In this document: positions 22,247 to 62,521 of the stretch, in pieces
How positions within the stretch are numbered: the stretch's first letter is position 1
Layout: every line of letters starts with the position of its first letter
Origin: Rubripirellula reticaptiva
Lineage (GTDB): Bacteria > Planctomycetota > Planctomycetia > Pirellulales > Pirellulaceae
Assembly: GCF_007860175.1 (NCBI RefSeq)
Contig: NZ_SJPX01000006.1
Location: forward strand, 250,074-314,073
Direction: 5' to 3'
DNA length: 64,000 nucleotides
Made by a program: the position numbers and the translations under genes
Notes under the pieces: generated by a model
Told to the model about the DNA's origin: nothing
Databases searched by the model: none
Seen by the model: the letters and a program-made list of their open reading frames with translations, nothing else

Positions 22247-22262
22247 AGCACGTGTCGTGCCG
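22247..22262 (-). promoter_or_regulatory. Sigma-54-like promoter for the lipoprotein and Gly/Ser-rich genes
   Basis: On the minus strand the sequence is CGGCACGACACGTGCT: an intact -24 block (GGCACG), correct GG-N10-GC spacing and TGCT at -12 with one T changed. The predicted start near 22236 gives a leader of about 105 bases. Confidence 0.4.
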
Positions 22263-22281
22263 AATCAGGCAATTCATACAT

Positions 22282-22297
22282 TGGCATCGCGATTGCA
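22282..22297 (+). promoter_or_regulatory. Sigma-54 promoter for the membrane protein-alcohol dehydrogenase operon
   Basis: TGGCATCGCGATTGCA fits the -24/-12 consensus TGGCAC-N5-TTGCW except for one base. It lies in a gap, 72 bp before the ATG at 22369, back to back with a second site on the other strand. Confidence 0.6.
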
Positions 22298-22368
22298 CCT
22301 TCAGTGCTAGATTTCTAACTGCGGAACTGGAAACAGTTTCGGCCGTAACACACGCAAGGGAGATTGCC

Positions 22369-22872
22369 ATGAGTACGCATTTCAACACACATTCAAAGGT
22401 CCAATCGGACGAACCCGACGCGCATGTCGTGGCACGCCATTTTCGCACTGGTGTGCGTTTGCTACTCGGTTTGTCGTTGATCGCGACGGTCTTGTGTTTG
22501 GCGTTCTTTCAAAAGGCCGCCTACCTCGCTGCGATTCCGATACCTCTGCTGTACGCGGTGTTGGCACTTACCAACTATCTGGAGTTCAGGTCGCGTGGAT
22601 CGAACTTGCGCTCGGCCGAAGGCGCCGATGTCAGTCGCGAAGAGATGCAAGTGGACATCGAGACGGTCGGTGTGGTGACGCTACTAAAAGTGCTCGGGGT
22701 GTTGGCGATAGGAACCTTCATCATTGCCGCTTCATTCTTTGACTGGCGAACGGTTGGCATCGCTGCGGCCGCCCTTTTCTTCATCGTGATTCTGATTCAG
22801 TTGCCATACCTTCCGCTGTATTTCAGCGAAGCGGAACGCGATGAGCGTGAAAAATTAGAAAATCGCACATGA
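22369..22872 (+). CDS. Integral membrane protein with about four helices
   Basis: ATG 22369 is preceded by AAGGGAG; upstream in-frame starts lack a ribosome site. The 167-residue protein has hydrophobic helices at about 30-50 (LLLGLSLIATVLCLAFF), 52-70, 105-125 (VVTLLKVLGVLAIGTFIIAA) and 130-152, with short charged loops. I do not recognise a family. Its stop overlaps the alcohol dehydrogenase start (ATGA), so the two are coupled and under the same promoter. A role in the membrane side of the same stress response is possible but unproven. Confidence 0.75.
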   Translation: MSTHFNTHSKVQSDEPDAHVVARHFRTGVRLLLGLSLIATVLCLAFFQKAAYLAAIPIPLLYAVLALTNYLEFRSRGSNLRSAEGADVSREEMQVDIETVGVVTLLKVLGVLAIGTFIIAASFFDWRTVGIAAAALFFIVILIQLPYLPLYFSEAERDEREKLENRT

Positions 22873-23891
22873 AGGCAATGATCCTCAGCGGGTGCGGCCT
22901 GCTAAGCGTGCAACCACGCCCACTGTCCCTGGTCGATATAGACACGCCCAAGCCAACTGACAACGAACTGCTGATTCGAGTTTCTGCTTGTGGCGTCTGT
23001 CATACTGAACTGGACGAAATCGAAGGTCGGCTGACACCGCCGCATTTGCCCGTCATTCTCGGTCATCAAGTCGTCGGACGGGTTGCCGAGTGCGGCAAAA
23101 ACGTCCAGCGGTTTAGAACGGACGAGCGTGTGGGTGTCGGCTGGATATATCACTCCAATGGCTTGCCCGATGAAAACCTTTCACCGCAGTTTGCTGGCAC
23201 TGGTTACGACGTCAACGGCGGCTACGCGGAATTCATGACAGTGCCGGAAACCTACGCGGCCCAGATTCCAGACAACTTGACCGACACTCAGGCTGCACCA
23301 CTAATGTGCGCTGGAGCGATCGGCTACCGCGCGATACGGCTCACCGGAATGCGTGATGGCGATCCGCTTGGTTTGATGGGATTCGGTGGGTCAGGCCACT
23401 TGGTTTTGCCCACAGCAAAACATCTTTTTCCCAATTCCTCTGTCTACGTGTTCACTCGCGGGCGGTCCGGGCAACAGTTTGCTCGAGACCTGGGGGCGGA
23501 TTGGGCAGGAGACATTGATTCCACACCACCGGAAACTGTGCAAGCGATCATCGACACCACGCCTGCATGGAAGCCTGTTGTTGAATCTTTGAAAAAGCTG
23601 AGACACGGCGGGCGTCTCGTTATCAACGCGATTCGAAAAGAAGAAGAAGAAGACAAGCACGAACTATTGAATTTGAGCTATCACGAACACTTGTGGATGG
23701 AGCGTGAGATCAAGTCAGTTGCTAACCTTACGCACGCTGACATTGTCGAATTCTTGCCACTCGCGGCGTTGATCCCGCTGCGTCCCGAGGTAACCACCTA
23801 CCGATTGGACCAGGCCAACGAAGCGCTGTGTGACCTTCGGTTTGGGCGGATCAAGGGAGCCAAGGTGTTGGTGATGGAGACGATCACTTGA
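22869..23891 (+). CDS. Zinc-dependent alcohol dehydrogenase family protein lacking structural-zinc cysteines
   Basis: The 340-residue MDR-family protein has catalytic-zinc ligands in ACGVCHTELDEIEG (about 40-53), the GHQVVG segment (His near 66) and PLMCAG (Cys near 146). The cofactor-binding fold has GFGGSGH where most relatives have a GxGxxG loop, recalling the adh_fam_2 group (TIGR02822) in my memory. The lobe that usually holds four structural-zinc cysteines reads WIYHSNGLPDENLSPQFAGT and contains no cysteine. It presumably oxidises alcohols or reduces aldehydes with NAD(P)H, possibly as a fermentative sink. It is coupled to the membrane protein upstream; its 3' end overlaps the opposing gene by 8 bp. 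Confidence 0.87.
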   Translation: MKAMILSGCGLLSVQPRPLSLVDIDTPKPTDNELLIRVSACGVCHTELDEIEGRLTPPHLPVILGHQVVGRVAECGKNVQRFRTDERVGVGWIYHSNGLPDENLSPQFAGTGYDVNGGYAEFMTVPETYAAQIPDNLTDTQAAPLMCAGAIGYRAIRLTGMRDGDPLGLMGFGGSGHLVLPTAKHLFPNSSVYVFTRGRSGQQFARDLGADWAGDIDSTPPETVQAIIDTTPAWKPVVESLKKLRHGGRLVINAIRKEEEEDKHELLNLSYHEHLWMEREIKSVANLTHADIVEFLPLAALIPLRPEVTTYRLDQANEALCDLRFGRIKGAKVLVMETIT

Positions 23892-29989: not shown

Positions 29990-30005
29990 CGCAACTTGCG
30001 TGCCG
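29990..30005 (-). promoter_or_regulatory. Sigma-54 promoter for the two large secreted proteins
   Basis: On the minus strand CGGCACGCAAGTTGCG matches TGGCACG-N4-TTGCW except at the first and last bases. It lies 50 bp before the ATG at 29940, within the 90-bp gap after the GH130 gene. Confidence 0.6.
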
Positions 30006-33338: not shown

Positions 33339-33354
33339 GCAAACCGAATGCCAT
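33339..33354 (-). promoter_or_regulatory. Sigma-54 promoter for the GT4-GH130 operon
   Basis: On the minus strand TGGCATTCGGTTTGCG matches TGGCAY-N5-TTGC exactly. It lies 41 bp before the GT4 ATG, in the gap shared with the divergent oxidoreductase gene. Confidence 0.62.
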
Positions 33355-33399: not shown

Positions 33400-33415
33400 G
33401 GGTACATGATTTGCA
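33400..33415 (+). promoter_or_regulatory. Sigma-54-like promoter for the Gfo/Idh/MocA gene
   Basis: GGGTACATGATTTGCA has GG-N10-GC, AC in the -24 block and TTGCA at -12, 72 bp before the start. It is a weaker match than the site on the opposite strand of the same gap. Confidence 0.4.
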
Positions 33416-33486
33416 CCGGTTTTGCACCAGAGCGTCTCCGCTGGTGACCGCCTTCTTTGCAGCGACAGCCTAAGGACTATCAAGTG

Positions 33487-34680
33487 ATGCAATGCAGAAT
33501 CGGTGTGATCGGATGTGGTGAATTGGGTTTTGCTGCAATGCATCAGTGCGCTGCGATTCCAGACGTGCAACTGGTTGCAGCAACCGACGTGAACGAGGAC
33601 AACGTCGAAAAAGCTGTCCAGCAATTTGGTTTGATTCACGCGCCCAGTGTTAACGCACTATGCCAGCGACCCGATATCGACCTTGTCTACGTCGCCTCAC
33701 CAGCCTTCCTGCACCACGATCATGCGATGGCAGCGCTCAATGCTGACAAGCATGTTGTGGTCGAGGTACCGCTGGCGCTATCGCTTGGCGAGGCGAACGA
33801 CATGTTTGAGTTAGCACACGCTGAAGATCGAATTCTTGTTGCCAATTTGATGCAGCGATACAATCAATTGACTGATCAGGTGGGCGAACTGATTGAACTC
33901 GAAATTCTTGGCAAACCGCTGCACGGATACTTTGAAAACTACGCTTCCGTCGAACGCCTTGGCCGCGATGACCTGAACTGGGGTAGGTCCCAAGGTGGCG
34001 GAATATTCATCGAACACGGCGAGCACTCTTTTGACTTGTTTGCGAACTGGCTGGGGGCTGGCGAAGTCGTTTCGGCCCAGCGGTTGCTGCGTGACCCGTT
34101 GAATTCGGAAGACCAAGTTCAATGCTGTGTTCGCTACCGAGATGACATCCTGGTCAACTACTATCATGGATTTCACCAGCCTGGATGTTTGGATCGGCAA
34201 GAATTGCGAATCGTTTTCGAAAGAGGCCACGTTACACTACATGGCTGGGTTCCCACGCGACTTTGTCTTGACGCGGTATTAGGCTCGAGTGACAAAGAGC
34301 GACTGGTCGAGCTGTTTGCGACCTCAGAATATCAAATGCTCGAGACGAGTACGGGAAAGCAACGTGATTGCGAGCGAGATCACGACTTTCAATTCAACAA
34401 CGAAATTCGGCTGACGGTTGGGCGACGGCAAGACAAGACGAAGCGTTGCGGCGAACTAGTGAAGTTGCTGATCGAGGATCAAATCAATGGCTGCGCTGAC
34501 AAATTCCACCGACGCCGCATCAACGAGAAAACTAGTCGAGAATCGCTAAGAATGGCAGTGCAGGCGAATGAAATGGCCCGCGCGGGCAGTACAACTTCCC
34601 ATCTTCTGACGCCACAAATTACAGAAATGAGCCGCGTGGATTCGTTGCTTGGCACTTCAGTTGCTCACAAGTTGAAGTAG
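33487..34680 (+). CDS. Gfo/Idh/MocA family oxidoreductase
   Basis: The open frame extends upstream, but the Rossmann fold starts immediately at MQCRIGVIGCGELGFAAMHQ, so ATG 33487 (or GTG 33484) is likely. The 397-residue protein has a nucleotide-binding GxGxxG-type loop, the DIDLVYVASPAFLHHDHA and DKHVVVEVPLALSLGEA strands, and the C-terminal sheet domain; EKP in relatives is EVP here. Such enzymes oxidise or epimerise sugars or inositols with NAD(P). The last 80 residues are charged and unlike the family. It is divergent from the GT4-GH130 operon, with a promoter for each in the gap, so a shared sugar pathway is plausible. Confidence 0.85.
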   Translation: MQCRIGVIGCGELGFAAMHQCAAIPDVQLVAATDVNEDNVEKAVQQFGLIHAPSVNALCQRPDIDLVYVASPAFLHHDHAMAALNADKHVVVEVPLALSLGEANDMFELAHAEDRILVANLMQRYNQLTDQVGELIELEILGKPLHGYFENYASVERLGRDDLNWGRSQGGGIFIEHGEHSFDLFANWLGAGEVVSAQRLLRDPLNSEDQVQCCVRYRDDILVNYYHGFHQPGCLDRQELRIVFERGHVTLHGWVPTRLCLDAVLGSSDKERLVELFATSEYQMLETSTGKQRDCERDHDFQFNNEIRLTVGRRQDKTKRCGELVKLLIEDQINGCADKFHRRRINEKTSRESLRMAVQANEMARAGSTTSHLLTPQITEMSRVDSLLGTSVAHKLK

Positions 34681-39633: not shown

Positions 39634-39649
39634 TGCAAGCCGTGTACCG
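39634..39649 (-). promoter_or_regulatory. Sigma-54-like promoter for cytochrome c
   Basis: On the minus strand CGGTACACGGCTTGCA has GG-N10-GC, AC in the -24 block and TTGCA at -12. The predicted transcript start near 39622 gives a leader of about 36 bases. Confidence 0.45.
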
Positions 39650-40998: not shown

Positions 40999-41014
40999 AG
41001 CAAACTGTGTGCCG
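40999..41014 (-). promoter_or_regulatory. Sigma-54 promoter for the epimerase
   Basis: On the minus strand CGGCACACAGTTTGCT has GGCAC at -24 and TTGCT at -12 with correct spacing; only the leading T is changed. It lies 50 bp before the ATG at 40949. Confidence 0.55.
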
Positions 41015-46518: not shown

Positions 46519-46776
46519 ATGAATCAAGGCCTAGTTTACTTCAACCAAGACTGTTCCGTTTGCGGTCGTGGCATGCGAGTGCGGATCGAACTGCTTGGTA
46601 AAGAAATCGCCTGTGCTCATTGCAGCGCCATCACCGTGGCCTCTGACAATGTGGACCACCCTTGGGCTGGCTCGGACCGGTTCCAAAAGATCGACCGGAA
46701 AGAACTACGAGAACTCGCATTTTCGGAGCACAGCCACGACATTCGGCACGTGTCTTGCTCATCAATCGAAACATGA
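46519..46776 (+). CDS. Small zinc-ribbon protein
   Basis: ATG 46519 is preceded by GGAGG; the longer frame adds 16 unlikely residues. The 85-residue product has two Cys pairs, CSVCGRG (about 11-17) and CAHC (about 31-34), the typical four-Cys zinc ribbon, then a charged helical tail. It could bind nucleic acid or protein; no partner is evident. Its 3' end contains the sigma-54 promoter that serves the Hsp20 genes, so the two are separate transcription units. Confidence 0.7.
   Translation: MNQGLVYFNQDCSVCGRGMRVRIELLGKEIACAHCSAITVASDNVDHPWAGSDRFQKIDRKELRELAFSEHSHDIRHVSCSSIET
46744..46759 (+). promoter_or_regulatory. Sigma-54 promoter for the Hsp20 cluster
   Basis: CGGCACGTGTCTTGCT matches TGGCACG-N4-TTGCW at all but the first base. 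It overlaps the last codons of the zinc-ribbon gene and lies 66 bp before the first hsp20 ATG. The predicted leader is about 54 bases. Confidence 0.6.
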
Positions 46777-46824: not shown

Positions 46825-47250
46825 ATGGCGTTTCAATTCACTTGGCCGCGTGAACTCAACCGCTTGCAAAGCGAGATGGACCAATTGTTTGGTCGGGACG
46901 GCGGTTCGATTTCTCGTTCGCAAGCGTATCCAGCAATCAACCTGCTGGAAGACGACGACAACTTGTATGTCGAATCTGAAATTCCCGGGATGGAACTGGA
47001 TCATTTTGAACTGTTTGTCAATGACGAGAATCAATTGACGATTCAAGGAGAACGGAAACAGCCCAACGGGGGAACAACGACGCGGCACCGCGAGGAACGA
47101 TCGTTCGGCCGATTTTCGCGAATGATCTCGCTGCCGGCACTTGTTGATGGCGATGCAACGACGGCCGAGTATGTCGCTGGGGTGTTGACGATCACGCTGC
47201 CGAAGAGACCCGAAGCGAAACCGCGGCGGATTCAAGTTGCGGCTGGCTGA
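46825..47250 (+). CDS. Hsp20/alpha-crystallin small heat-shock protein (1 of 3)
   Basis: The 141-residue protein has a short N-terminal arm (MAFQFTWPRELNRLQSEMDQ), an alpha-crystallin domain (about 35-135, YPAINLLEDDDNLYVESEIP, LTIQGERKQP) and the A-x-x-x-G-V-L motif in YVAGVLTITLPKRPEAKP. Small heat-shock proteins bind unfolding proteins without ATP and keep them refoldable. GGAG upstream supports the start. It is the first of three tandem, diverged copies, each with its own ribosome site. Confidence 0.92.
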   Translation: MAFQFTWPRELNRLQSEMDQLFGRDGGSISRSQAYPAINLLEDDDNLYVESEIPGMELDHFELFVNDENQLTIQGERKQPNGGTTTRHREERSFGRFSRMISLPALVDGDATTAEYVAGVLTITLPKRPEAKPRRIQVAAG

Positions 47251-47317
47251 ACAAATGAGAGGCTTTCAGTCTTTCAATTCCATTGAACGAACCTTCACTT
47301 GATCAAGGATATTTATC

Positions 47318-47710
47318 ATGGCAGAAACCACACTCACCCAAACGGCTCCCGCACAATCCTCGGCCGAGCCGACTCGTCAGGCTCCGTTGTTTCAACCTCG
47401 TTTCGATATCACGGAAACCGAAAATGAACTGACGCTCTTCGGCGATTTGCCCGGTGTCGACCAAGGCGACTTGGACATCCGTTACGAGAATGAGCAACTT
47501 ATCGTTCAGGGTCGGGTAGCGGCTCGCAATGAAGGCTTGCAGGTGTTGCGTCAGGAATACGGCGTTGGTGATTTTCAACGTACCTTCACGATCGGAGAGG
47601 CGATCGATGCAGAAGCGATCAACGCTGAAGTACACAATGGCGTCTTGGTGGTGCACTTGCCCAAGGCCGAAGCGGCCAAGCCGAAAAGGATCGCCGTGAA
47701 GGCGGTCTAG
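47318..47710 (+). CDS. Hsp20/alpha-crystallin small heat-shock protein (2 of 3)
   Basis: The 130-residue protein has an Ala/Thr/Gln-rich N-terminal arm (about 1-25), then the crystallin domain (PRFDITETENELTLFGDLPG, about 28-47; LIVQGRVAARNEG) and VHNGVLVVHLPKAEAAKPKR at the end. It is well diverged from both neighbours, so the three are not recent duplicates. It follows the first copy by 67 bp with no promoter motif in between, so co-transcription is likely. A hairpin lies after its stop. Confidence 0.92.
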   Translation: MAETTLTQTAPAQSSAEPTRQAPLFQPRFDITETENELTLFGDLPGVDQGDLDIRYENEQLIVQGRVAARNEGLQVLRQEYGVGDFQRTFTIGEAIDAEAINAEVHNGVLVVHLPKAEAAKPKRIAVKAV

Positions 47711-47725
47711 TCCAATCACGCAGGT

Positions 47726-47742
47726 CCGTCTCGCAAAGACGG
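47726..47742 (+). terminator. Possible terminator after the second hsp20
   Basis: CCGTCT and AGACGG form a 6-bp stem with a CGCAA loop, followed by GCAGTTTTGAG. The T run is short, so partial read-through into the third hsp20 is likely. Confidence 0.4.
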
Positions 47743-47858
47743 GCAGTTTTGAGCCGACAGCACAGTTGCGGGGGCGCCATGATACCGCACTAAGGAAGTA
47801 CCCAAAGCTAGCGCCATCACCCTTCGAATCAACCCTTCAAACTTAAGGAATTTTAGTC

Positions 47859-48329
47859 ATGTTTAAAAATCTAATCCCCCGGAAACGTCAAAGCGACTCT
47901 GGATTGATGGAAGTCGACCCCAAGAACGAAATGGCACAGTTCCGAGCCAACTTTGATCGCATGCTAAATGATGTGTGGCGTGGCAATTGGGACGACGCCT
48001 GGAACAATGGCTGGGGCTGTGACGTGAAAGACGCCGAAGATGAAATCGTCGTCCGTGCAGAAGCCCCTGGGTTTGAGCCCGACGAAATCGACGTCCGTCT
48101 CTCAGCCGGTCGCTTGGTCATGCAAGCCGAACACAGGGCAGAGCAACACACGACCGAGAATGGCGATGGCCAATTCAGCAGCTACGGAAAGTTCTATCGT
48201 GCGATGAGTGTGCCGGCGGGCATCGAAGCCGACAAGATCGAAGCCCGATATAAGAACGGAGTTCTGGAAGTCCATTTGCCGAAAGGCGAAGAGGCGAAAT
48301 CAAAACGCATTGCCGTACAGGCGAAGTAG
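47859..48329 (+). CDS. Hsp20/alpha-crystallin small heat-shock protein (3 of 3)
   Basis: The 156-residue protein has a longer N-terminal region rich in Asp, Asn and Trp (VWRGNWDDAWNNGWGCDV, about 39-56), a crystallin domain (VRAEAPGFEPDEIDVRLSAG, LVMQAEHRAEQHT) and the C-terminal YKNGVLEVHLPKGEEAKSKR. The ribosome site is TAAGGAA. The Trp-rich arm differs from the other two and may set oligomer size or client choice. A strong terminator follows. Confidence 0.92.
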   Translation: MFKNLIPRKRQSDSGLMEVDPKNEMAQFRANFDRMLNDVWRGNWDDAWNNGWGCDVKDAEDEIVVRAEAPGFEPDEIDVRLSAGRLVMQAEHRAEQHTTENGDGQFSSYGKFYRAMSVPAGIEADKIEARYKNGVLEVHLPKGEEAKSKRIAVQAK

Positions 48330-49416: not shown

Positions 49417-49427
49417 TTACGCCACTT

Positions 49428-49443
49428 TGGTCCGTAACTTGCA
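49428..49443 (+). promoter_or_regulatory. Sigma-54-like promoter for DUF2267
   Basis: TGGTCCGTAACTTGCA keeps TGG, CG and TTGCA with correct GG-N10-GC spacing. It lies 48 bp before the next gene (ATG 49491), divergent from the PAC2 site. Confidence 0.45.
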
Positions 49444-52553: not shown

Positions 52554-52739
52554 GCAAAATGAACCGCGTTCATAGTTGCGAATTGCAATCCTCGTCCAGG
52601 ATCACCGACGCATCTCGCCGCACACCTGTGCCGATCAGCGCAGTGGACATTTCGCTTAGTGGCCGCTTTGGCACAAGTCGAAACAACACCTTTGATCACA
52701 TTTCCGCTGGCTGGCCGTCTTTCGCCATTTCATGGCCGA

Positions 52740-52755
52740 CGGAACGGCACTTGCA
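52740..52755 (+). promoter_or_regulatory. Sigma-54-like promoter for the DsbD-like gene
   Basis: CGGAACGGCACTTGCA has GG-N10-GC, ACG in the -24 block and TTGCA at -12. It lies 124 bp before the GTG start at 52879, in a gap of about 325 bp that otherwise holds no gene. Confidence 0.42.
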
Positions 52756-52878
52756 TTCAATTTGGGGTGATGGAAGTGAGCCATGAAGACTCATTGTGTG
52801 CTGAGTTGTAGACCGTATGTCCAACCAAAACGGCACCTTTCGACAAGGTGTTCCGATTGAATAGCCAAGGCCAAGGCC

Positions 52879-54459: not shown

Positions 54460-54466
54460 CGCGAAA

Positions 54467-54496
54467 GCCGCCGCCGAGTGTTGGTTTCGGCGCGGC
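54467..54496. terminator. Hairpin between convergent genes
   Basis: GCCGCCGCCGA (54467-54477) pairs with TCGGCGCGGC (54487-54496) with one bulged base: 10 base pairs. It lies between the DsbD-like gene and the convergent nitroreductase gene. T runs are short (ATTTTTG at about 54512). Confidence 0.5.
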
Positions 54497-54522
54497 ATGA
54501 TCAGCGGACTAAATTTTTGCGT

Positions 54523-55527
54523 CTACGGAGCCATGATCACCTCATCGACACTTCGCCGGGGCGTGGGTTTGACTTCACTACCGTAGCCCAAACGAAGCAG
54601 GAGTTGAGGATACCCGTTGACTCCGATCGACTTGGCAAGCTTGGTACGCAGGCTGGGAACTTCGATCGGTTGGTTCAGGTACGACGCATCGATCGAACAG
54701 GAAGCGGCACGCAAAGTGATCTTTGCGAGTGCTTGCCCGCAATCGACCCAGTCGGCAGGAGTGTCTGCCTCGGATCCGATCACGGCAAGCAAGGGTGATC
54801 CTTCGGCAAGTTGCCGATCCTTGGCGGCCTGTCCATTGCCCCAATCGAACGTGCGAACGGCGAGCCAACCAAAGTGCGACGCCAGGTCACTAATTCCTTG
54901 CGAGTAACCCGGTATCCCATCACGCCGCGAACTGCTGTTGGAATGAACCCATTTCGCCAGTTCACGACAGAATTGTTTGTCGCTCGCTTGTATTTTATCG
55001 CCTTGGGAAACCAAGTCGGCAACTGCGTGCTTTTCACGATCCGAATGAATCAAATGAATCCAAACTCGTTCCGACTTGGCATCATCAATCCATTCCGCTT
55101 GCCGATCGGAATCGATCGCTTGCTTGCTGAACGGAAACCGATTGGTTCGGCGCTTGGGAATCGCATCAAACAGGACTCGTTCGTCATCGCTTGGGTTGTG
55201 CGGACCTGCTACCAACACACGAGCGATCAGGTCCTCGTCATCATTCGCTGGAAGCACCCGAACCAAGGTGGCGAGCGAATCATTGTTCATCGCAAGCCTG
55301 AGATGATACAGTGCCGCACCGCAACTGATCGTCAGTTCACGATTGTGCGGATCAACAACAGGGCACGCGCGCGTAAGATCGGCGAACAACTCGACTTGGC
55401 CGGGCTTCAAACGGAACGCCCATGGCTGTGTGTTGTGGCTCGACGGAGCCATAACGGCGTACCGTATAGCGTCGTGAAGTCGGTGATTGAGCGAATCAGT
55501 CAATTTTGGATCGGTCGCAGTGTCCAT
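54523..55527 (-). CDS. Acg-type (DosR-regulon type) nitroreductase-like flavoprotein
   Basis: ATG 55527 is chosen because the family signature starts soon after; the longer frame has an atypical leader. The 334-residue protein fits the Acg family of FMN-binding nitroreductase-like proteins: AIRYAVMAPSSHNTQPWAFR (about 21-40), ELTISCGAALYHLRLAM, RRTNRFPFSK and a C-terminal PQLLLRLGYG. In Mycobacterium, Acg and its paralogues (Rv2032, Rv3127, Rv3131) are DosR-controlled and bind FMN without clear nitroreductase activity. The best sigma-54 promoter of the window lies upstream. Confidence 0.88.
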   Translation of the reverse strand: MDTATDPKLTDSLNHRLHDAIRYAVMAPSSHNTQPWAFRLKPGQVELFADLTRACPVVDPHNRELTISCGAALYHLRLAMNNDSLATLVRVLPANDDEDLIARVLVAGPHNPSDDERVLFDAIPKRRTNRFPFSKQAIDSDRQAEWIDDAKSERVWIHLIHSDREKHAVADLVSQGDKIQASDKQFCRELAKWVHSNSSSRRDGIPGYSQGISDLASHFGWLAVRTFDWGNGQAAKDRQLAEGSPLLAVIGSEADTPADWVDCGQALAKITLRAASCSIDASYLNQPIEVPSLRTKLAKSIGVNGYPQLLLRLGYGSEVKPTPRRSVDEVIMAP

Positions 55528-55597
55528 GGAATCGTCGCCTAAAAAGTAGAGTCGATCTGCTGCGAGATGACACGTCACAGCACTTGCAATGAACAAT

Positions 55598-55613
55598 TGC
55601 AAGGTTTGTGCCA
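55598..55613 (-). promoter_or_regulatory. Sigma-54 promoter for the Acg-type gene
   Basis: On the minus strand TGGCACAAACCTTGCA matches the consensus TGGCAC-N5-TTGCW in full. It lies 71 bp before the ATG, in the gap after the Cys-rich protein gene. Predicted transcript start near 55586. Confidence 0.68.
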
Positions 55614-55704
55614 ACGATTGCCTGCGAACAGGATTGCGATCAACACTTCGGCTCGACGTTGCATTTTCTTATCATGCATCGACGCCACACGTTTCAAGCG
55701 TGAC

Positions 55705-56301: not shown

Positions 56302-56524
56302 GTCGGGTGCTCTTTGCTGACGGAACTCGGTTTGAGTTTGGTTAACCTAGCAAATGGAGTCGCAGAACCTATACGAGTACCGTCAATAACCGCGGCAAGA
56401 CTAGAAATTCTGCCAATTCAGCCGGAAATAGCAATCCAAGGACGTCGACGGTAGCGTATGAAAAGTTTTCGAATCCGAACGGCACACTCGCAGGGGATCG
56501 TCACGGCTGAATAGACGGCTTGCA

Positions 56525-58084
56525 TCATAGATGCGCAGCGACCTGTACCAGATCGGGGACATCCACGACGTGGCTGAGTTCGGATTGCGTCAGCGGTTGA
56601 TGCGTTGCGAGTTGATGTTCAAGTACTCGCAAGTCGGCGTCCGAAGCATCTTGGTTCTGAGACATTCGGTCGGCAACGCGCTGTCGCAACGTTTGTTCAT
56701 CGCTGTGACAATCAAGAATCGCAAAGGGGACACCTTCGCTTGTGGCCAATTCGTGAAACCGCTCACGGTCACGTTGTCTTAAAAAGGTCGCATCGATGAT
56801 TACGCTGTAGCCCGCTCGTAGGATTTGGCTTGCTCGATCTTCTAGATAAGCATAAGTCTTTTCACTGGACGCTTCGCTGTACAGCTCCGTCTTTTGTTCA
56901 CTTGATGGTCGGTCGGTCGCAAGCAAACCGAAGATTCGTTTGCGTTCTGTATCACTACGTAGTCGGACGGCATCATGTCGTTGAACGACCAGCTCGCTGA
57001 GAGTCGTCTTTCCGCTGCCGCTAACGCCGTGAGTGATCCACAACTGTGCTCTTTCTTCCGCAGTGAATTGATGCGCCAATTGGACGTGCTTGCGAGCGTC
57101 TCGCATCGCGGATTCACGGTCACTAGGTTTTAAATGGCTCTGGTCGGTGCGGATCGTTGCCACTAACGCACGTACTAACGAACGGTAAATCAGAAACGGG
57201 CGAATCAGGTCGAGTGAATCATAGTCGCCCGTACCTTCTAGGTAATGATTCATGAATGTTCGCGACAAATCCAAATGCCCGCAAAAAGCTAGATCCATCT
57301 GCAGAAACGCAGCGTCAGCTAGGATGTCGATCCAGCGAAGCTCTTCGTTAAACTCGACACCGTCAAACGGAACCAAACGATCGCCCCAATGGACAACGTT
57401 CCCAAGATGTAAGTCACCATGGCATTCACGGACGAATCCGTCGTCCAAACGTTTTGCAAGCGTTGCGAAGTTCTGTTTCAACCAGTCATCTGTCCAACGA
57501 TGGATAGCTTTCAACGTAGCGACGGTCTCGCGATCAAGTTTGGATTGCAGCGAGAGAACGATCTGATGAAGGTTCTTGACAAAAAAGTCGGGCCAAGTGT
57601 TCCGATCCGTGGTGTCAGAAATCGCAGCGACTTTATGAAAGCTGGCGATGTTGTCGGCGAGTTGATGGACTTCTGCAGTGGTCAGTTTTCCGTTCTTGAT
57701 TTGTTCGCTAAGCAACGAACCTTGCTTGAATCGTCGCATCTTGACCGCGTACTCGACGCGTTCTCCAGAACCATCGACCTGAATGTGACCTTCGTGCAAA
57801 CAGATTGGTACGACACCCAAATACAAATCGTTTTCATATCTGCCATCCAACCGGACTTCTTCATGACAGAAGTGACGTCGGAGTTCTAGCGTGCTGTAGT
57901 CGAGGAAGTTCGTCTTGATTGACTTCTTAATCTTGTAGGCGAATTCGCCAGCCAAGAACACGATTGAAATATGAGTTTCTTGAACTTCAATGATCCCTTC
58001 GACCGGGTGCGGGTAAGCGCCGGGTTTTGACAAGCCTTCGACAAGCGTTTCCGTCCTGATCGCCTTTTCAGTTGGGGCAGACAT
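56525..58084 (-). CDS. Aminoglycoside-phosphotransferase-like/AAA kinase two-domain protein (Rv2004c type)
   Basis: ATG 58084 follows GGAG; the ATG fourteen codons upstream lacks a ribosome site. The 519-residue protein has an N-terminal kinase-like domain (about 25-320) with FAYKIKKSIKTNFLDYSTLE and the catalytic loop HGDLHLGNVVHWGDRLVPFD. The C-terminal P-loop domain (about 345-500) has Walker A GVSGSGKTTLSELVVQRHD, YSVIIDATFLRQRDRERFHE and LDCHSDEQTLRQRV. Rv2004c of Mycobacterium has this layout and belongs to the DosR regulon, which fits the neighbours here. The substrate is unknown. It is probably co-transcribed with the upstream USP gene, 90 bp away. Confidence 0.88.
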   Translation of the reverse strand: MSAPTEKAIRTETLVEGLSKPGAYPHPVEGIIEVQETHISIVFLAGEFAYKIKKSIKTNFLDYSTLELRRHFCHEEVRLDGRYENDLYLGVVPICLHEGHIQVDGSGERVEYAVKMRRFKQGSLLSEQIKNGKLTTAEVHQLADNIASFHKVAAISDTTDRNTWPDFFVKNLHQIVLSLQSKLDRETVATLKAIHRWTDDWLKQNFATLAKRLDDGFVRECHGDLHLGNVVHWGDRLVPFDGVEFNEELRWIDILADAAFLQMDLAFCGHLDLSRTFMNHYLEGTGDYDSLDLIRPFLIYRSLVRALVATIRTDQSHLKPSDRESAMRDARKHVQLAHQFTAEERAQLWITHGVSGSGKTTLSELVVQRHDAVRLRSDTERKRIFGLLATDRPSSEQKTELYSEASSEKTYAYLEDRASQILRAGYSVIIDATFLRQRDRERFHELATSEGVPFAILDCHSDEQTLRQRVADRMSQNQDASDADLRVLEHQLATHQPLTQSELSHVVDVPDLVQVAAHL

Positions 58085-58174
58085 GGAAGGCTCCGATGAA
58101 ATGGGATGAAAGAATGACAAACGCAAAGCAAATTTAGCAGGTGACTGCTAACCAATCGCGACAAACTCGATCGC

Positions 58175-59149
58175 TCACAGCAAAGGCAACGGCTCGTCAT
58201 CTTCGACTAAAACGACACTCGCCATTTGCACCGGAGAAACGAACCCGTCGGGCTTGAGTGCCAATAGCGAACACGTCACGTCCGGAATGACGGTCTCTGC
58301 AGTGTTGCCGATCAGGAACCCTGCAACGCCCGTTCGGCAGACGGTACCCATCACTAACAAGTCGGCCTCAATTTCATCGGCAACGCTGCGGATCACCGAC
58401 GCCGCTGATCCGTGACGCAAATGCAGTTGAATGTCGTCGGCTTGTGAAAAGGGTGCCTGCAGCAACTCGTCGAGCGCTTTACGAACCTTCGCTTCGTGGT
58501 CTTTGCGAATAGAATCGACCTCGGCGTTTCCCGCATGTCGCCGCATCGATTCTTCCATCCACAATTGCCACGCGGCGACGATATGCAGTTTCGCGTTGTC
58601 TCGTTGGGCGATCGAGTAAGCGAGTTCCAAAATTTTCCGGTTCAGATCACCATGATTCTTATCGTCTGATTCAACGTCGATGGCTGCCAAGACTCGGTCA
58701 AACTGACCGTGAATTTGCGGCTTCAACAACCAAACGGGACAGGGACAAAGCCGTAGCAGTGACTTCGCCACACTGCCAAACAGTCGGCCCGCCGGTGAGA
58801 ATCCATCAGCCGTTTTGACTAGAAGGTCGTGCCCGTCGCGGATCACTTGCCGAGCGATTTCCGTCGCCGGATCACCGATGGCGACCGCCACGTCGAGCTG
58901 TAATCCTGTGTCGGAAACGTCACTGGCTAAGTCTAGCAGACGCCTCCGTCGGTCAGCCGCGACAAGCTTTTCGAGTTCTTCTGGCTTAGCGACATCCGTC
59001 ATCATGCCGAGCGATTTGGGGATGGGCTTGACGACGTCCATCAACGTTAGCGAAGCCTTGTTTTCAAGAGCCAACTGAGCGGCACGCGTGACCGCGACTT
59101 CCGGTTGGTCGGTTCCGGCGTACACCAGAATGTGTCTAAATCGTTGCAT
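58175..59149 (-). CDS. Universal stress protein, tandem USP domains
   Basis: ATG 59149 follows GAGGATAAAA; the ORF extends 23 codons upstream into sequence overlapping the previous gene's end. The 324-residue protein holds two UspA domains (about 1-145 and 150-300). The first has VYAGTDQPEVAVTRAAQLAL and a degraded nucleotide loop, GFSPAGRLFGSVAKSLLRLC. The second has VLAAIDVESDDKNHGDL and VMGTVCRTGVAGFLIGNTAE with the G-x-G-x9-G loop partly kept. Tandem USPs are typical of dormancy regulons. Second gene of an operon after the 300-residue USP. Confidence 0.9.
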   Translation of the reverse strand: MQRFRHILVYAGTDQPEVAVTRAAQLALENKASLTLMDVVKPIPKSLGMMTDVAKPEELEKLVAADRRRRLLDLASDVSDTGLQLDVAVAIGDPATEIARQVIRDGHDLLVKTADGFSPAGRLFGSVAKSLLRLCPCPVWLLKPQIHGQFDRVLAAIDVESDDKNHGDLNRKILELAYSIAQRDNAKLHIVAAWQLWMEESMRRHAGNAEVDSIRKDHEAKVRKALDELLQAPFSQADDIQLHLRHGSAASVIRSVADEIEADLLVMGTVCRTGVAGFLIGNTAETVIPDVTCSLLALKPDGFVSPVQMASVVLVEDDEPLPLL

Positions 59150-59192
59150 TTTTATCCTCGCTTTGACTGGTTGATTGACTCGCGTTGTGCGA

Positions 59193-60095
59193 TTACGAGT
59201 CGGAACTTGCCGATTCACTCGCTGTTATTTCGTGCTTGTCGTGAAAGCCGTGGATCATCCGGTTGCGGGTAATCCAGACGCTGCAGGGCGCGTGCCGGAG
59301 GACAAACCGAGTCATGCTGCCCATCAGTATTCGGCTTAACCGGGTACGCGGAGTTTCGCCGACTACCATCAAGTCAATGTCGTTGACCTCAGCGAACTTC
59401 ACCAATCCTTCGCCGACATGATCATTCTTGATGACACGTCCGGTGGATCTTTCCGCACACTGTAAAAGTTGTTCGGCTGCTAGGTCTGCGGCTTCAGCCC
59501 GACGCTGTTCCTCGCGTTCGTTGTACAAAGGATTCACGGTAACCACTTGGACGTCCGTTTGGGCGCCCCACTGAAATTCTGCAAACTCTTCCACCGCTGC
59601 TTGAGCCGGTCCGCTTGGTTCGTAGCCGATGGCGACACGCAATGGATGCTTTCCGCGAAGCCCGCCGGTTGAACGGACCACCAATACACTGCAGGGGGCG
59701 TGAGTTGCCACGTAGTCACTAGTGCTGCCCAACAACATGCGAGTCACCGCGGAATGCCCGGTTGCCCCAATGACCACCATCTCGGCATGAATCTCTTTTG
59801 AAATCGAGACGATCGTCTCGGCCGGACGACCTTTACGAATAATGGACTTCAGACGAACGTCAGCGCCGGTGAAGATCGCTTCTATCGCTGCGTATGTCTC
59901 CTTCGCTGTTGTTCGCTCTTGTTCAAGACAAGTCGCGATCCAATCGCCAACCAGATTGGATTTATCTTGGCCGGGCACAAACAGAACTGAGACTACCGTC
60001 AATTCGATCGTTTCATCGTGCGGCAGGTGCGCGAGGAACTTAGCACCGTTCAAGGATGAATCGGAACCGTCGGTGGCAAGTAAGATTCTTCTCAT
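59193..60095 (-). CDS. Universal stress protein, tandem USP domains
   Basis: The 300-residue protein has two UspA domains: about 1-140 (MRRILLATDGSDSSLNGAKF, ATP loop VIGATGHSAVTRMLLGSTSD) and about 150-285 (VAIGYEPSGPAQAAVEEFAE, loop VVGETPRTRLSRILMGSMTR). The first loop matches the ATP-binding G-x2-G-x9-G-(S/T) pattern; in the second the Gly at the middle position is replaced by Arg, so it may not bind ATP. Mycobacterial Rv2623-type tandem USPs are close in layout. First gene of an operon with the second USP and the APH-AAA protein. Confidence 0.92.
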   Translation of the reverse strand: MRRILLATDGSDSSLNGAKFLAHLPHDETIELTVVSVLFVPGQDKSNLVGDWIATCLEQERTTAKETYAAIEAIFTGADVRLKSIIRKGRPAETIVSISKEIHAEMVVIGATGHSAVTRMLLGSTSDYVATHAPCSVLVVRSTGGLRGKHPLRVAIGYEPSGPAQAAVEEFAEFQWGAQTDVQVVTVNPLYNEREEQRRAEAADLAAEQLLQCAERSTGRVIKNDHVGEGLVKFAEVNDIDLMVVGETPRTRLSRILMGSMTRFVLRHAPCSVWITRNRMIHGFHDKHEITASESASSDS

Positions 60096-60151
60096 GATCG
60101 TTTCCTTTTGGTGAACTCAACTGCATAATTGACGACGAACTTCACGGTGAA

Positions 60152-60167
60152 CGCAAAACGGGTGCAA
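60152..60167 (-). promoter_or_regulatory. Possible sigma-54-like promoter for the USP operon
   Basis: On the minus strand TTGCACCCGTTTTGCG has intact GCAC-N5-TTGC but one of the -24 GG bases is T, which should weaken it. It lies 57 bp before the ATG at 60095. Confidence 0.32.
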
Positions 60168-60236
60168 CCTCAGGGCTAACAAAGATTGAGTGAGTCTTGA
60201 ACGTTTTGGCAAACAAACTGGGGTTCTGCGGACTTG

Positions 60237-61226
60237 TTACCCGTGGATTCCACGCCTCCCTTCGTCCTCTTCCCACTTGGTTGGCAATTCAGCGTGTGGT
60301 GGATGATCTGCATCTGGTTGATGAAAGTCGCTGGTGTTGCGGTAGTATTCTTTACATTCGTCTTCGCGACCCCGGACGATTCTGCGGCCTTGCAGTTCGC
60401 CAAACTGGGACGTGATGACGGTCCAGCGACCGTGCGAGTCCGTATCATCGCGATAGATGATGACCCAGTCACGAGTGGTGTGTCGCTGATGAGCCTGTTC
60501 GGTGTTGGAATAGAGTGCTGTGTAGTTGCGATTGTCGCGATGAGTGTGCAGGATCGAAAGCCAGGCGACTTTGCCTGGGTTGAAGTTCTTTGGCGCTACT
60601 TTGGGTAGACTGTCGTCCTCGGCCTTTTGTCGGTATTCCCGGTCGATCGAGAGCAATTCTGCGATTGGAATCGATTTATCCGAATCGGCATAATTTGCTG
60701 CGGCGTCTGAGCTGGTTCGCGATTGGAGGCTTTCCATGATTGCCTGGATCCGTTTGCGGCCAAGTCCGGATACTTCCTTGAGTCGCCCCTGTTTTGCTGC
60801 CGCAAATAGTTCCGGAAGGGTCTCGACGTGCAAGGTATCGTAGATTCGGTGAGATAGTTCTGGTCCGATTCCGGGCAACGTTGTGAAGTACGCTTCGGCG
60901 TTTGCTACTCCGCGAAGCCGATCCAGCAACGGCATGTGGCCAATTCGCAAATACGTCTCTACGAGTGCCGCGGTCGAGTGGCCAATTGTCGGCAGTGAAA
61001 CCAGTCCTGTGATACCGTCGTGGTCTAACAATGCGCGAATCGGTGAAGGTAATCCGGCGATCGTGTCGGCCGCCGCGCGGTAAGCACGCAAGCGAAACTC
61101 GCTTGCGTGCTGTTCCTCTAACAGCACTGCGATCTCGCGAAGCAAATCAGCGATTTCATGATTTTCATGAAGACCGTCGATGTCTTCGGCAGCATGAATC
61201 GGGTCCGACGAGTTGATGGCTACCAT
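60237..61226 (-). CDS. Helix-hairpin-helix protein related to the N-terminus of PolX, with an extra C-terminal domain
   Basis: The 329-residue protein starts like family X DNA polymerases: ADLLREIAVLLEEQHASEFR (8-kDa-type helix, about 26-45) and helix-hairpin-helix repeats at LPTIGHSTAALVETYLRIG (about 78-96), LPGIGPELSHRIYD (about 117-130) and VSGLGRKRIQAIMESL (about 152-167). The polymerase palm and PHP domain are absent. The C-terminal 110 residues (ILHTHRDNRNYTALYSNTEQ, DWVIIYRDDTDSHGRWTVIT) form a separate domain that I do not recognise, rich in His and Arg. It probably binds DNA and may act in repair. It follows the dihydroorotate-dehydrogenase-like gene by 14 bp, so they share a transcript. 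Confidence 0.82.
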   Translation of the reverse strand: MVAINSSDPIHAAEDIDGLHENHEIADLLREIAVLLEEQHASEFRLRAYRAAADTIAGLPSPIRALLDHDGITGLVSLPTIGHSTAALVETYLRIGHMPLLDRLRGVANAEAYFTTLPGIGPELSHRIYDTLHVETLPELFAAAKQGRLKEVSGLGRKRIQAIMESLQSRTSSDAAANYADSDKSIPIAELLSIDREYRQKAEDDSLPKVAPKNFNPGKVAWLSILHTHRDNRNYTALYSNTEQAHQRHTTRDWVIIYRDDTDSHGRWTVITSQFGELQGRRIVRGREDECKEYYRNTSDFHQPDADHPPHAELPTKWEEDEGRRGIHG

Positions 61227-61240
61227 CGCATTGGCTCCTG

Positions 61241-62284
61241 CTAGGTCTTGTGACCGAAAGCGTCGCCCGTTTCGGGCGAAACAACCGGCGTGGGATCGAA
61301 ATACGTTGTCGAGCGTGTCAGAGGATCGGTCACTTGCAGACGCATGATTCGTTCGGGACCGATCTCGGCGGCCGGCCTGGAATGCTGGAAGTCACTGATC
61401 GTCGGATAGTGATTGATTTCAAGGTGACGTCTGATGCCGTCGACGATACTGCGAATTGCGTTGGGCCCCTCGCGGTAAACGGCAGACGTCACCATCACAA
61501 CATCCGCACCAGCAATCATTGCTTTAATGGCCTCATCGCTATTTGATACACCGCCGCTAGCTGCGATCGAAAGGTTCAGATTCGCATTGTAGACCCGCAC
61601 GATTCCTTCCAAAATTCCGCCAAGTGAATCGATCGGTGAGAGTTCCCAGGCGATCGTCCAGTGCTTTCGATCCAGCGAAACGTCCCAGTGCGGTAGGTGC
61701 GTGAACAAAACGATGCCTTTGGCACCAACGTCACGGATCTGCCGAGTGATGGACGCAAGATTGGTGTACCGCTGACTGACTTTGACCGTTACTGGAATGG
61801 AAATTCGACTTACCAAGTCGGCAACCATTTCGCACAGGTCGGACTCGATTGTAGCGGCGGTCGTGTGCGGATCGTAGATCGCCGACTGCACGTTTAACTC
61901 CAATGCGTCGGCACCGGCAGACTCGATCTCTTCAGCATAGGCAAGCCAATCACCTTTGCTCGCGCAATTCATGCTGGCGATGATAGGAATGCAGGTGACC
62001 CGTTTCAGGTTCGCAATGATACCGGGATAGTTATCCGCACCACCGTTGTATTTGTCTTGCTGTGATTGATAGCCGCTGTCGGAAATCGCTCGCAGGGGGT
62101 CGGTTGACTTCAGTTGCCGATGCACGATTTGTTCTTGCAACATCGACGGCAGCACGACTGCCCCGACACCAGCGTCGACGAGCTGACGCACTGTCTCGGG
62201 CTGAATCGTCAACGGACACGCTCCCATAACGACGGGCGATGTCAGTTGGAGTCCCAAATAGTTGACAGCAAGTTCGTTTGACAT
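61241..62284 (-). CDS. Dihydroorotate-dehydrogenase-like flavoprotein
   Basis: The 347-residue TIM-barrel protein resembles the FMN-binding DHOD superfamily: LTSPVVMGACPLTIQPETVR (about 15-34), CIPIIASMNCASKGDW, DALELNVQSA, TVKVSQRYTNLASI and C-terminal SIAASGGVSNSDEAIKAMIA with VMVTSAVYREG, the phosphate-binding end. It differs from PyrD and belongs, as I recall, to the DHOD-like group found beside pyruvate:ferredoxin oxidoreductase in anaerobes, so orotate is not a safe substrate call. First gene of a two-gene operon with the helix-hairpin-helix protein, under a sigma-54-like promoter. Confidence 0.85.
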   Translation of the reverse strand: MSNELAVNYLGLQLTSPVVMGACPLTIQPETVRQLVDAGVGAVVLPSMLQEQIVHRQLKSTDPLRAISDSGYQSQQDKYNGGADNYPGIIANLKRVTCIPIIASMNCASKGDWLAYAEEIESAGADALELNVQSAIYDPHTTAATIESDLCEMVADLVSRISIPVTVKVSQRYTNLASITRQIRDVGAKGIVLFTHLPHWDVSLDRKHWTIAWELSPIDSLGGILEGIVRVYNANLNLSIAASGGVSNSDEAIKAMIAGADVVMVTSAVYREGPNAIRSIVDGIRRHLEINHYPTISDFQHSRPAAEIGPERIMRLQVTDPLTRSTTYFDPTPVVSPETGDAFGHKT

Positions 62285-62334
62285 GGCTTGTAGCGAACGA
62301 AGTAGGAGAATGACCTGTGAGCGAGTCCGTTAAC

Positions 62335-62350
62335 CGCAAACCGCGTACCT
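62335..62350 (-). promoter_or_regulatory. Sigma-54-like promoter for the DHOD-like operon
   Basis: On the minus strand AGGTACGCGGTTTGCG has GG-N10-GC, ACG in the -24 block and TTGC at -12. It lies 52 bp before the ATG at 62284. Confidence 0.48.
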
Positions 62351-62393
62351 AGACGTTCTGCGAACAAGAGTGGTCCCTGGGGCGCGCCAGTGT

Positions 62394-62426
62394 GCCGATT
62401 TGGTGCGTTGAACGTGGCCGATTTGG
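62394..62426. repeat. Direct repeat, possible activator-binding sites
   Basis: GCCGATTTGG occurs at 62394-62403 and 62417-62426, 23 bp apart, with similar flanks (GTGCCGATTTGGTGCG and GTGGCCGATTTGGCGCGG). They lie about 80-110 bp upstream of the strong sigma-54 promoter of dsrE-pfkA and 45-75 bp from the divergent one, the usual place for enhancer-binding-protein sites. Confidence 0.45.
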
Positions 62427-62505
62427 CGCGGTTGGAAACGCCATGATCATAAGATCGCCACAATGAATTGCGGTTTCGACTCGTTTGAGAAGCAACAGAG
62501 CTGTC

Positions 62506-62521
62506 TGGCACATTTCTTGCC
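62506..62521 (+). promoter_or_regulatory. Sigma-54 promoter for the DsrE-phosphofructokinase operon
   Basis: TGGCACATTTCTTGCC matches TGGCAC-N5-TTGC exactly. It lies about 170 bp before the DsrE start; the predicted transcript start is near 62533, giving a long leader. Confidence 0.62.

Follow-up and report, generated by a model that had tools for sequence, protein, structure and literature searches.

Genes and predicted promoters

The window, by which we mean the whole 64,000-nucleotide stretch of Rubripirellula reticaptiva DNA analysed, encodes universal stress (Usp)-like, Hsp20-like and Acg-type proteins together with kinases and a LuxR-type response regulator (Table 1). PAC2, DUF2267, DsrE, Usp and NiFe hydrogenase genes were the further content counted for what we call the survival island. 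Usp, Hsp20 and Acg-type genes occur together here, as they do in low-oxygen sets of the DosR and lxa kind. Judged by its sequence, the gene set (Usp, Hsp20, Acg-type nitroreductase, phosphofructokinase, then NiFe hydrogenase) resembles those that serve low-oxygen survival.

The genome has a single RpoN. Strong sigma-54 activator domains number 22, of which one reading covered 14, the loci of the other 8 lying in the opposite orientation. One activator gene sits just beyond the end of the window. Its product is NtrC-like, with receiver, sigma-54 AAA+ and Fis domains, and a kinase gene lies alongside.

Table 1. Genes, predicted sigma-54 sites and candidate enhancers (window coordinates)
Feature	Position	Strand	Details
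Palindrome GTGC-N6-GCAC, proposed enhancer	12668..12681	+	78 bp before 12746
Weaker site	12746..12761	+	score 11.7; 73 bp before ATG; cNMP-binding protein and hydrogenase-beta-like gene
cNMP-binding protein and hydrogenase beta-subunit-like protein	12835..14489	+	NCBIfam matches below cut-off
LuxR-type response regulator	19139		
Receiver and histidine-kinase ATPase protein	20197..21297	+	
Strict -24/-12 site	22282..22296	+	71 bp before ATG; precedes 22369 gene and alcohol dehydrogenase
Strict -24/-12 site	29991..30005	-	49 bp before ATG; 857-aa protein and carboxypeptidase-regulatory-repeat protein
Strict -24/-12 site	33339..33353	-	39 bp before ATG; glycosyltransferase and GH130 genes
Weaker site	33411..33426	+	score 11.3; 60 bp before Gfo/Idh-like gene
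Strict -24/-12 site	34650..34664	+	80 bp before 61-codon ORF; within last codons of another ORF
Strict match	36823	-	inside ZIP/erythromycin-esterase-like ORF
Weaker site	39634..39649	-	score 12.9; 47 bp before cytochrome c-like gene
Strict -24/-12 site	41000..41014	-	epimerase-like gene; 49 bp before hand-chosen ATG at 40949
Multi-PAS histidine kinase (HisKA_3)	41041..43038	-	
Strict -24/-12 site	46744..46758	+	65 bp before three Hsp20-type genes
Three Hsp20-like genes	46825..48329	+	first by Pfam HSP20; other two by reading
Weaker site	49428..49443	+	score 10.9; 47 bp before DUF2267 and PDZ genes
Palindrome GTGC-N6-GCGC, proposed enhancer	52628..52641	+	112 bp before 52740
Weaker site	52740..52755	+	score 13.2; 123 bp before hand-chosen GTG; glutaredoxin-like membrane protein
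Acg-family (Rv3131-like) FMN oxidoreductase	54523..55527	-	339.9 bits, cut-off 199
Strict -24/-12 site	55599..55613	-	70 bp before hand-chosen ATG at 55527; Acg-family nitroreductase
Usp-like pair and AAA kinase gene	56525..60095	-	AAA_33; Usp assigned by reading and by blastp against Usp3 family members
DHOD-like and helix-hairpin-helix genes	60237..62284	-	
Strict -24/-12 site	62506..62520	+	172 bp before DsrE-like and phosphofructokinase genes
DsrE-like gene and phosphofructokinase-like start	62694..64000	+	phosphofructokinase by reading; extends beyond window

Enrichment and placement of the sites

The strict motif YGGCAY-N5-TTGC occurs nine times in the window. Dinucleotide-shuffled windows held a mean of 1.06 and a maximum of 5, and none of 100 reached nine; the expectation of about 0.5 in the initial annotation was therefore too low. 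That annotation had listed seven strict matches, all of which are present on the strands given, with minus-strand sites denoted by their 5' end (33354 is corrected to 33353). It had overlooked 34650(+) and 36823(-), the former raising the number of exact TGGCAY sites from four to five. Genome-wide there are 185 strict matches as against 83 for the reversed pattern, a rate at which 1.5 would be expected per 64 kb (Poisson P 2.9e-5 for nine); the density in the window is about six times the genome average.

Some 85% of the window is coding, and seven of the nine strict sites are intergenic, each facing a start. A same-strand start lies at most 172 bp downstream of eight of the nine. Distances for seven of the eight gene-preceding sites are 39-80 bp, and 172 bp for 62506 (the initial annotation gave 40-75 bp for most and about 190 bp for 62506); starts came from a simple gene caller and hand choices (12835, 29940, 40949, 52879, 55527, 62694), so these distances are possibly flattered. 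Intergenic enrichment is also seen, more weakly, elsewhere in the genome (29 intergenic and 37 coding sites among 66 of the 68 TGGCAY sites outside this island and a second one on C3).

A matrix hand-written from the general consensus was used to score weaker sites. With it, the N5 spacer outscored six alternative spacers and the reversed matrix in the window. The claim that such promoters stand before most transcription units fails for strict sites, which precede 8 of the 20 units at 22-63 kb, and holds once weaker sites are counted, since 12 of the 20 have a score of at least 10.5 (the other 8 score below this value, and none of the 20 reaches it with the reversed matrix). The eight weaker sites proposed earlier fared unevenly: those at 39649, 52740, 33400 and 49428 score 10.9-13.2, whereas 49362, 60167 and 62350 score 9.0-9.2, within the range of reversed-matrix controls (up to 9.4). 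The remaining one, 22262, scores 12.1 but has no same-strand start within 300 bp.

That the matches are products of chance or codon usage is highly improbable. The intragenic position of 36823, which is probably a chance occurrence, and the coding sites elsewhere in the genome would fit such an origin, but the shuffles, the reversed pattern, the other spacers and the intergenic placement contradict it; we rejected chance on the excess over shuffled and reversed patterns and on the preference for N5.

Conservation in relatives

In the corresponding clusters of relatives, 19 of 24 strict sites are intergenic, four of them 34-54 bp before Usp1. The earlier reading of the motif as a sigma-54 promoter thus held up in the sequence tests proposed with it, on intergenic enrichment in the window and in relatives and on density relative to the genome; the presence of RpoN and of an adjacent activator fits it as well. 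Sigma-54-like sites also occur in relatives before some orthologues. The glutaredoxin-like membrane protein has an upstream site scoring at least 11 in five of seven relatives, a strict site precedes a run of Hsp20-like, DsrE and phosphofructokinase genes in one genome (G003), and at locus L032 an ORF homologous to the 61-codon ORF has a strict site 229 bp upstream.

By sequence comparison, the two strict sites examined in this way, those of the glycosyltransferase and the nitroreductase, are not conserved. The former was found before none of 12 other gene copies (one start, at L241, is doubtful). The latter is absent before the closest homologue, at L032, where there is no synteny. Such sites are rare before Acg genes of other phyla: among 78 loci (80 less L104 and L105), 3 have one that scores at least 12.

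A candidate enhancer and its activator family

The palindrome GTGC-N6-GCRC was found upstream of 13 of 18 sigma-54 sites in relatives (Markov mean 0.95, maximum 5, over all 32 sequences), having first been spotted by eye in the same upstream sequences on which it was then counted. This count omits 6 of the 24 strict sites (five within genes, one intergenic but facing no gene), and among the 18 kept, one (G001 C8 31374) has no modelled gene ahead of it over 300 bp. Two tests are more independent. Across 60 genomes, palindrome-promoter pairs number 35, as against 6 in the reversed arrangement; the own genome has no pair of palindrome and strict site. In the adjacent activator's family, 11 of 18 genes are also preceded by the palindrome (1.5 kb searched), as against 1 of 20 other activators (1.2 kb searched), and it is therefore probably that family's enhancer. 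The score for the activator of the island itself was just 7.0 in this comparison because its palindrome sits further upstream, before the kinase gene. Before the activator's paralogue, the palindrome is the sole match scoring at least 12 in 35 kb.

Within the island, the exact palindrome accompanies 3 of 14 sigma-54-like sites (six of these weak, one beyond the window) and none of the eight strict sites; more than one activator may therefore act there. With this distribution of the proposed enhancer, the term regulon, as first applied to the region, is only half borne out.

Discussion

In the reading we propose, a survival island is transcribed by sigma-54 (RpoN) from these sites; on the sequence evidence this is likely, with an NmpR-like two-component activator driving the island at least in part. 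Against it stand the scarcity of exact palindromes at the island's sites, the two unconserved strict sites, the units that score below 10.5, the excess of Fnr-like boxes and the behaviour of rpoN in R. baltica described below. The condition to which the island responds is probably low oxygen or low energy. What the sequence shows is the sites with their enrichment and placement, RpoN, the domains of the activator and the link between palindrome and activator family; we infer promoter activity, signal, acting kinase and how the strict sites are wired, along the following lines. On failure of respiration, PAS-type sensor kinases would phosphorylate the NtrC-family receiver-AAA+-Fis activator, which would bind GYGCR-N4-YGCRC enhancers, contact sigma-54 RNA polymerase waiting at the -24/-12 elements and so activate the Usp and hydrogenase genes along with its own. 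Sigma-54 would also serve the strict promoters, those of the Hsp20, Acg nitroreductase, alcohol dehydrogenase, phosphofructokinase and glycan genes, where either the enhancers would be degenerate or a different activator would act.

A quite possible alternative, to which we nevertheless give less than even weight, is that the promoters are real but the strict ones serve one or more other sigma-54 activators, the island being a patchwork of stress genes and not one regulon. The lack of an exact palindrome at the eight strict sites would fit this, as would the number of activators in the genome and the outcome of dyad searches, which stayed within the null for both island and second-island sites. 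So would the second island itself, whose stretch contains strict sites, lacks any activator domain and shows the palindrome at none of 11 sites. Against a patchwork, relatives keep the activator and kinase genes next to Usp, DHOD-like and hydrogenase genes, and a degenerate palindrome is present at 62506 (p 0.037, uncorrected).

Other regulators would place sigma-54 in a minor role or none. The palindrome might belong to a Crp/Fnr-type regulator with low-oxygen control, sigma-54 being secondary. Its form is similar to a Crp box, the gene at 12835 encodes a cNMP-binding protein, and Fnr-like boxes number 10 in the window where 3.06 are expected (none of 100 shuffles reaches 10). This reading is improbable, as all ten Fnr-like boxes are intragenic, Crp boxes with at most one mismatch are absent, Pfam finds no DNA-binding domain in the protein at 12835, and the palindrome associates with a sigma-54 activator. 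It is just as doubtful that a DosR-like pair, the LuxR-type regulator at 19139 and the HisKA_3 kinase at 41041, governs the island through sigma-70 promoters. Both proteins are indeed encoded in the window, whose gene content is like that of the DosR regulon. However, sequences like the DosR box, the one box type sought for such a pair (general consensus, at most three mismatches), number 3 where 3.5 are expected. A simple sigma-70 scan of 44000-63900 gave 6 sites where shuffles predict 10.9, a count that decides little. Control by Fnr, Crp or DosR is thus not favoured.

The preferred reading, of sigma-54 promoters under an NmpR-like activator, could be widened. General-stress genes like those of the second island are under RpoS, SigB or EcfG in other bacteria. 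More tentatively, sigma-54 might have become a main stress sigma factor of this lineage, in charge both of a dormancy island like that of DosR and of the second, general-stress island. The activator family would then have an enhancer of its own, GYGCR-N4-YGCRC, and respond to oxygen or to the energy state; we find this conceivable but lean slightly against it. A planctomycete low-oxygen set under sigma-54, with an enhancer and an activator family that can be named, would tie RpoN to dormancy in planctomycetes, about whose stress control little is known, and the enhancer would permit regulons to be listed genome by genome and tested.

Comparison with known systems

Both DosR and Fnr-type regulators are known to control gene sets for low-oxygen survival. 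The DosR regulon of Mycobacterium tuberculosis is a low-oxygen set with Usp, Hsp20-type and Acg-type proteins, and the lxa locus of Burkholderia cenocepacia is reportedly another with Usp. The island is like these in grouping Usp, Hsp20 and Acg-type genes; it is unlike the DosR regulon, which is governed by a NarL/LuxR-type regulator without sigma-54, in having no excess of DosR boxes.

Sigma-54 regulons of planctomycetes are said to have been predicted by Studholme and Dixon in 2004. That sigma-54 promoters precede planctomycete stress genes is an earlier prediction: the accessible part of PMC12316311 describes them as enriched in Planctomycetia before Usp, chaperone/small heat shock, CsrA and NtrC-family genes, and that part makes no mention of the island, its activator or the palindrome. 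For R. baltica, the available text of PMC2754498 reports no regulation of rpoN in heat shock and a decrease in high salt.

A close parallel is NmpR of Myxococcus xanthus, which also controls a low-oxygen survival set. As far as the excerpts of PMC11841059 and PMC6211767 at hand go, NmpR, of the NmpRSTU system, is a response regulator of NtrC type whose palindromic enhancers lie upstream of sigma-54 sites; it acts on Usp and CBS genes, among others, and on its own system, and one target promoter is up in hypoxia. Homologues of nmpSTU in Planctomyces sp. SH-PL14 are noted in PMC6211767. There are differences: the M. xanthus sensor NmpU is described as sensing through a protoglobin domain, whereas the own genome has no match to protoglobin (PF11563), and the enhancer GCGCA-N5-TGCGC given for NmpR is GYGCR-N4-YGCRC here, one base tighter. 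The likeness, drawn by setting our system beside the description of NmpR, lies in domains, enhancer form and targets: in both, a receiver-AAA+-Fis activator of NtrC type adjoins a kinase, and palindromes stand upstream of sigma-54 sites.

Sigma-54 promoter sequences in the window

The initial annotation reported seven matches to the sigma-54 -24/-12 pattern YGGCAY-N5-TTGC (strict sites); all seven exist, and two more, at 34650 and 36823, had been overlooked, which makes nine in all. None of 100 dinucleotide shuffles reached nine (mean 1.06, maximum 5) and the genome-wide rate would give 1.5 (P 2.9e-5). Seven of the nine are intergenic (binomial P 6e-5), although our gene models span 84.5% of the window. 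The observation is confirmed, and is stronger than originally stated. Across the genome (7.85 Mb, 13 contigs) the strict pattern occurs 185 times versus 83 for the backward pattern, and the narrower TGGCAY-N5-TTGC 81 times versus 40. The match at 36823 is probably due to chance. The 61-codon open reading frame (ORF) behind 34650 has a homologue in Rhodopirellula sp. JC639 (L032; 61% over 61 residues), with a strict site 229 bp upstream.

Placement and spacing point the same way. Scored at a threshold of 12 with a matrix hand-written from the general consensus, spacer N5 gave 18 window matches, 11 of them intergenic and seven of these within 300 bp 5' of a same-strand start; the other spacers tried (N2, N3, N4, N6, N7 and N8) and the reversed matrix gave 2-8 matches, 0-2 intergenic and 0-1 upstream. 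Between 22 and 63 kb, the top-scoring upstream site reaches 10.5 or more in 12 of 20 transcription units (in none of the 20 with the reversed matrix), and eight units have a strict site. The distance from site end to start, for which some starts were hand-picked, is 39-80 bp in ten of those 12 units; 52740 and 62506 lie farther off, at 123 bp and 172 bp respectively. Among the weaker sites first proposed, 39649, 52740, 33400 and 49428 stand, 22262 is unlikely, and 49362, 60167 and 62350 are borderline at scores of 9.0-9.2. The reading of these elements as putative sigma-54 promoters is well supported by the sequence.

Coordinates of strict sites, genes and a second island discussed in the text
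Feature	Location	Strand	Remarks
Strict site	34650	+	in the final codons of one ORF; a 61-codon ORF starts 80 bp downstream
Strict site	36823	-	inside ORF
Genes for cNMP-binding and hydrogenase-beta-like proteins	12835-14489		
Adjacent activator	64188-65555 (window numbering)		just beyond window end; receiver, sigma-54 AAA+ and Fis-type HTH
Paralogue of adjacent activator	G000 (own genome) contig C2:236747-238084 (L271, L288)		70% identical; own palindrome upstream
Second dense strict-site island	G000 contig C3:188113-225511 (L029-L031)		11 strict sites in 38 kb

Gene content and conservation

The window encodes an Acg-family nitroreductase (339.9 bits against a cut-off of 199), Hsp20, PAC2, DUF2267, DHOD-like and DsrE-like proteins, a Usp-like pair and a phosphofructokinase-like protein, a content that we take to resemble the DosR low-oxygen set. 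A LuxR-type response regulator (19139-19918) and a HisKA_3 multi-PAS kinase (41041-43038) also lie in the window; they are possibly a DosR/DosS-like pair, separate from the sigma-54 activator. DosR-box-like sequences in the window are at chance level. Fnr-like TTGAT-N4-ATCAA boxes (at most one mismatch, both strands) number ten against 3.06 in shuffles, and all ten are inside genes. The cNMP-binding protein (12835-13380) has no detected DNA-binding domain, and its gene overlaps the start of the hydrogenase-beta-like gene by four bases. The CNNM-domain protein (51503-52027) has 174 aa versus 325 aa in its homologue in the relative G012 and has possibly been cut short. Overlapping minus-strand ORFs at 51984-53181, uncalled by our gene models, are possibly a gene remnant; the one searched had no Pfam match.

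The AAA-kinase gene occurs in 16 of 40 genomes, our own included, and the 17 stretches around it in nine relatives formed the comparison set. Several stretches again carry orthologues of the activator, kinase, Usp, DHOD-like, HHH, hydrogenase and phosphofructokinase genes, in shifting order, and 19 of the 24 strict sites in the stretches are intergenic (P 4e-11). A strict site precedes the Usp1 start by 34-54 bp in G012, G013, G014 and G016, while before the window's own Usp1 there is no more than a weak match without the GG. In G003 a strict site lies 5' of an Hsp20-like, DsrE and phosphofructokinase run, as at 62506, and in five of seven relatives a site scoring at least 11 precedes the glutaredoxin-like gene. 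Against conservation count the glycosyltransferase, with a site at none of 12 other copies (one start doubtful), and Acg loci across phyla, with a site scoring at least 12 in 3 of 78. At E 1e-40 none of the 39 relatives sampled had the nitroreductase, and its nearest homologue has no site upstream.

The promoter pattern extends beyond the window. The initial annotation had proposed comparing intergenic with coding DNA genome-wide. With the window and the C3 island set aside, the genome holds 68 TGGCAY sites, and 29 of the 66 whose surroundings were examined are intergenic, against 22% non-coding in that DNA (P 6e-5); in the window the figure is four of five. Eighteen of these 66 combine an intergenic position with a same-strand start no more than 300 bp away, for instance before genes whose proteins read as DnaK, GroES and Hsp20. 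All 11 strict sites of the C3 island are intergenic, with 36% of the stretch non-coding, and nine lie within 300 bp of a start. Its genes include those for CsrA, BON, DUF892, DUF1206, DUF2383, BrkB and PAP2 proteins, presumably a general-stress set. That stretch has no sigma-54 activator domain, and the GTGC-N6-GCRC palindrome described below accompanies none of its 11 sites.

A candidate enhancer and its probable activator family

The genome encodes one RpoN and has 25 sigma-54 activator matches, 22 of them strong. The activator adjacent to the window is among the strong ones and carries a GSFTGA loop that is also seen in other activators of this genome. A PAS kinase gene lies upstream on the same strand; divergent from the pair are a Usp gene and NiFe hydrogenase and maturation genes, the hydrogenase subunits being closest in NCBIfam to sulfhydrogenases, at scores under the curated cut-offs.

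The palindrome GTGC-N6-GCRC, a candidate enhancer, lies upstream of 13 of 18 relatives' sites and 3 of 14 sigma-54-like sites of the window's own island, starting 47-145 bp 5' of the -24 element; the total over 32 sequences is 16, against a Markov mean of 0.95 (maximum 5). Since it was first spotted in the very sequences counted, tests on palindrome-site pairs across genomes and on the DNA upstream of activator genes weigh more. Pairs of palindrome and strict site number 35 in 60 genomes versus six with the reversed pattern, and none in our own genome; 23 of 30 examined are intergenic, seven of these before Usp-type genes. Within the genus, our own genome aside, pairs occur in seven of eight genomes with the activator versus 2 of 13 without (P 0.002; P 0.007 with our genome included), and in the two activator-free genomes that have pairs these are in coding DNA. 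Over all 60 genomes the figures are 7 of 12 and 10 of 48 (P 0.03). An intergenic palindrome scoring at least 12 lies upstream of 11 of 18 activator-family genes versus 1 of 20 other activators of our genome (rank test P 2e-5; 1.5 kb searched per family member, 1.2 kb per comparison activator). For the C2 paralogue, the sole palindrome scoring at least 12 in 35 kb sits 136 bp before the gene; that of the island's own kinase-activator pair (about 67070) is in the DNA that separates the kinase gene from its divergent Usp-hydrogenase neighbours. On these sequence grounds we assign the palindrome to the adjacent activator's family. On G012 contig C286 (about 25.77-25.90 kb) a single palindrome is flanked by two divergent strict sites, as if one enhancer served both promoters.

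The proposal of a single regulon is half supported: the palindrome is assigned to the adjacent activator's family, but none of the eight gene-preceding strict sites of the window has an exact copy. A degenerate one accompanies 62506 (p 0.037, uncorrected). Yet the activator's DNA-binding helix region is identical in G003 and on G001 contig C5, and near-identical on G001 contig C8. At the island promoters that bear the palindrome (12746, 52740 and, past the window, 66926) the -24/-12 elements are weaker. It may be that poor enhancers suffice for strong promoters, or that these are served by another activator.

Comparison with known systems

Studholme and Dixon reportedly published a study on Pirellula in 2004. 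In later work, predicted sigma-54 promoters of Planctomycetia are enriched before Usp, chaperone/small heat shock, CsrA and NtrC-family genes (PMC12316311), and in R. baltica a sigma-54 promoter was proposed for one stress gene, with rpoN unregulated in heat shock and down in high salt (PMC2754498). Searches of an open-licence library yielded no paper joining DosR, planctomycetes and Usp and no prior description of the island or the palindrome. Sigma-54 promoters of planctomycete stress genes have been predicted already; by these searches, this island and its candidate enhancer appear to be new.

The window's gene content is similar to the reported lxa low-oxygen set. NmpR of Myxococcus xanthus is an NtrC-like activator with sigma-54 targets that include CBS and Usp genes, a target promoter up in hypoxia and the enhancer GCGCA-N5-TGCGC (PMC11841059, PMC6211767). 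The palindrome here is tighter by one base than that enhancer and our genome has no protoglobin match, so the activator family is not classed as NmpR; it probably works like NmpR.
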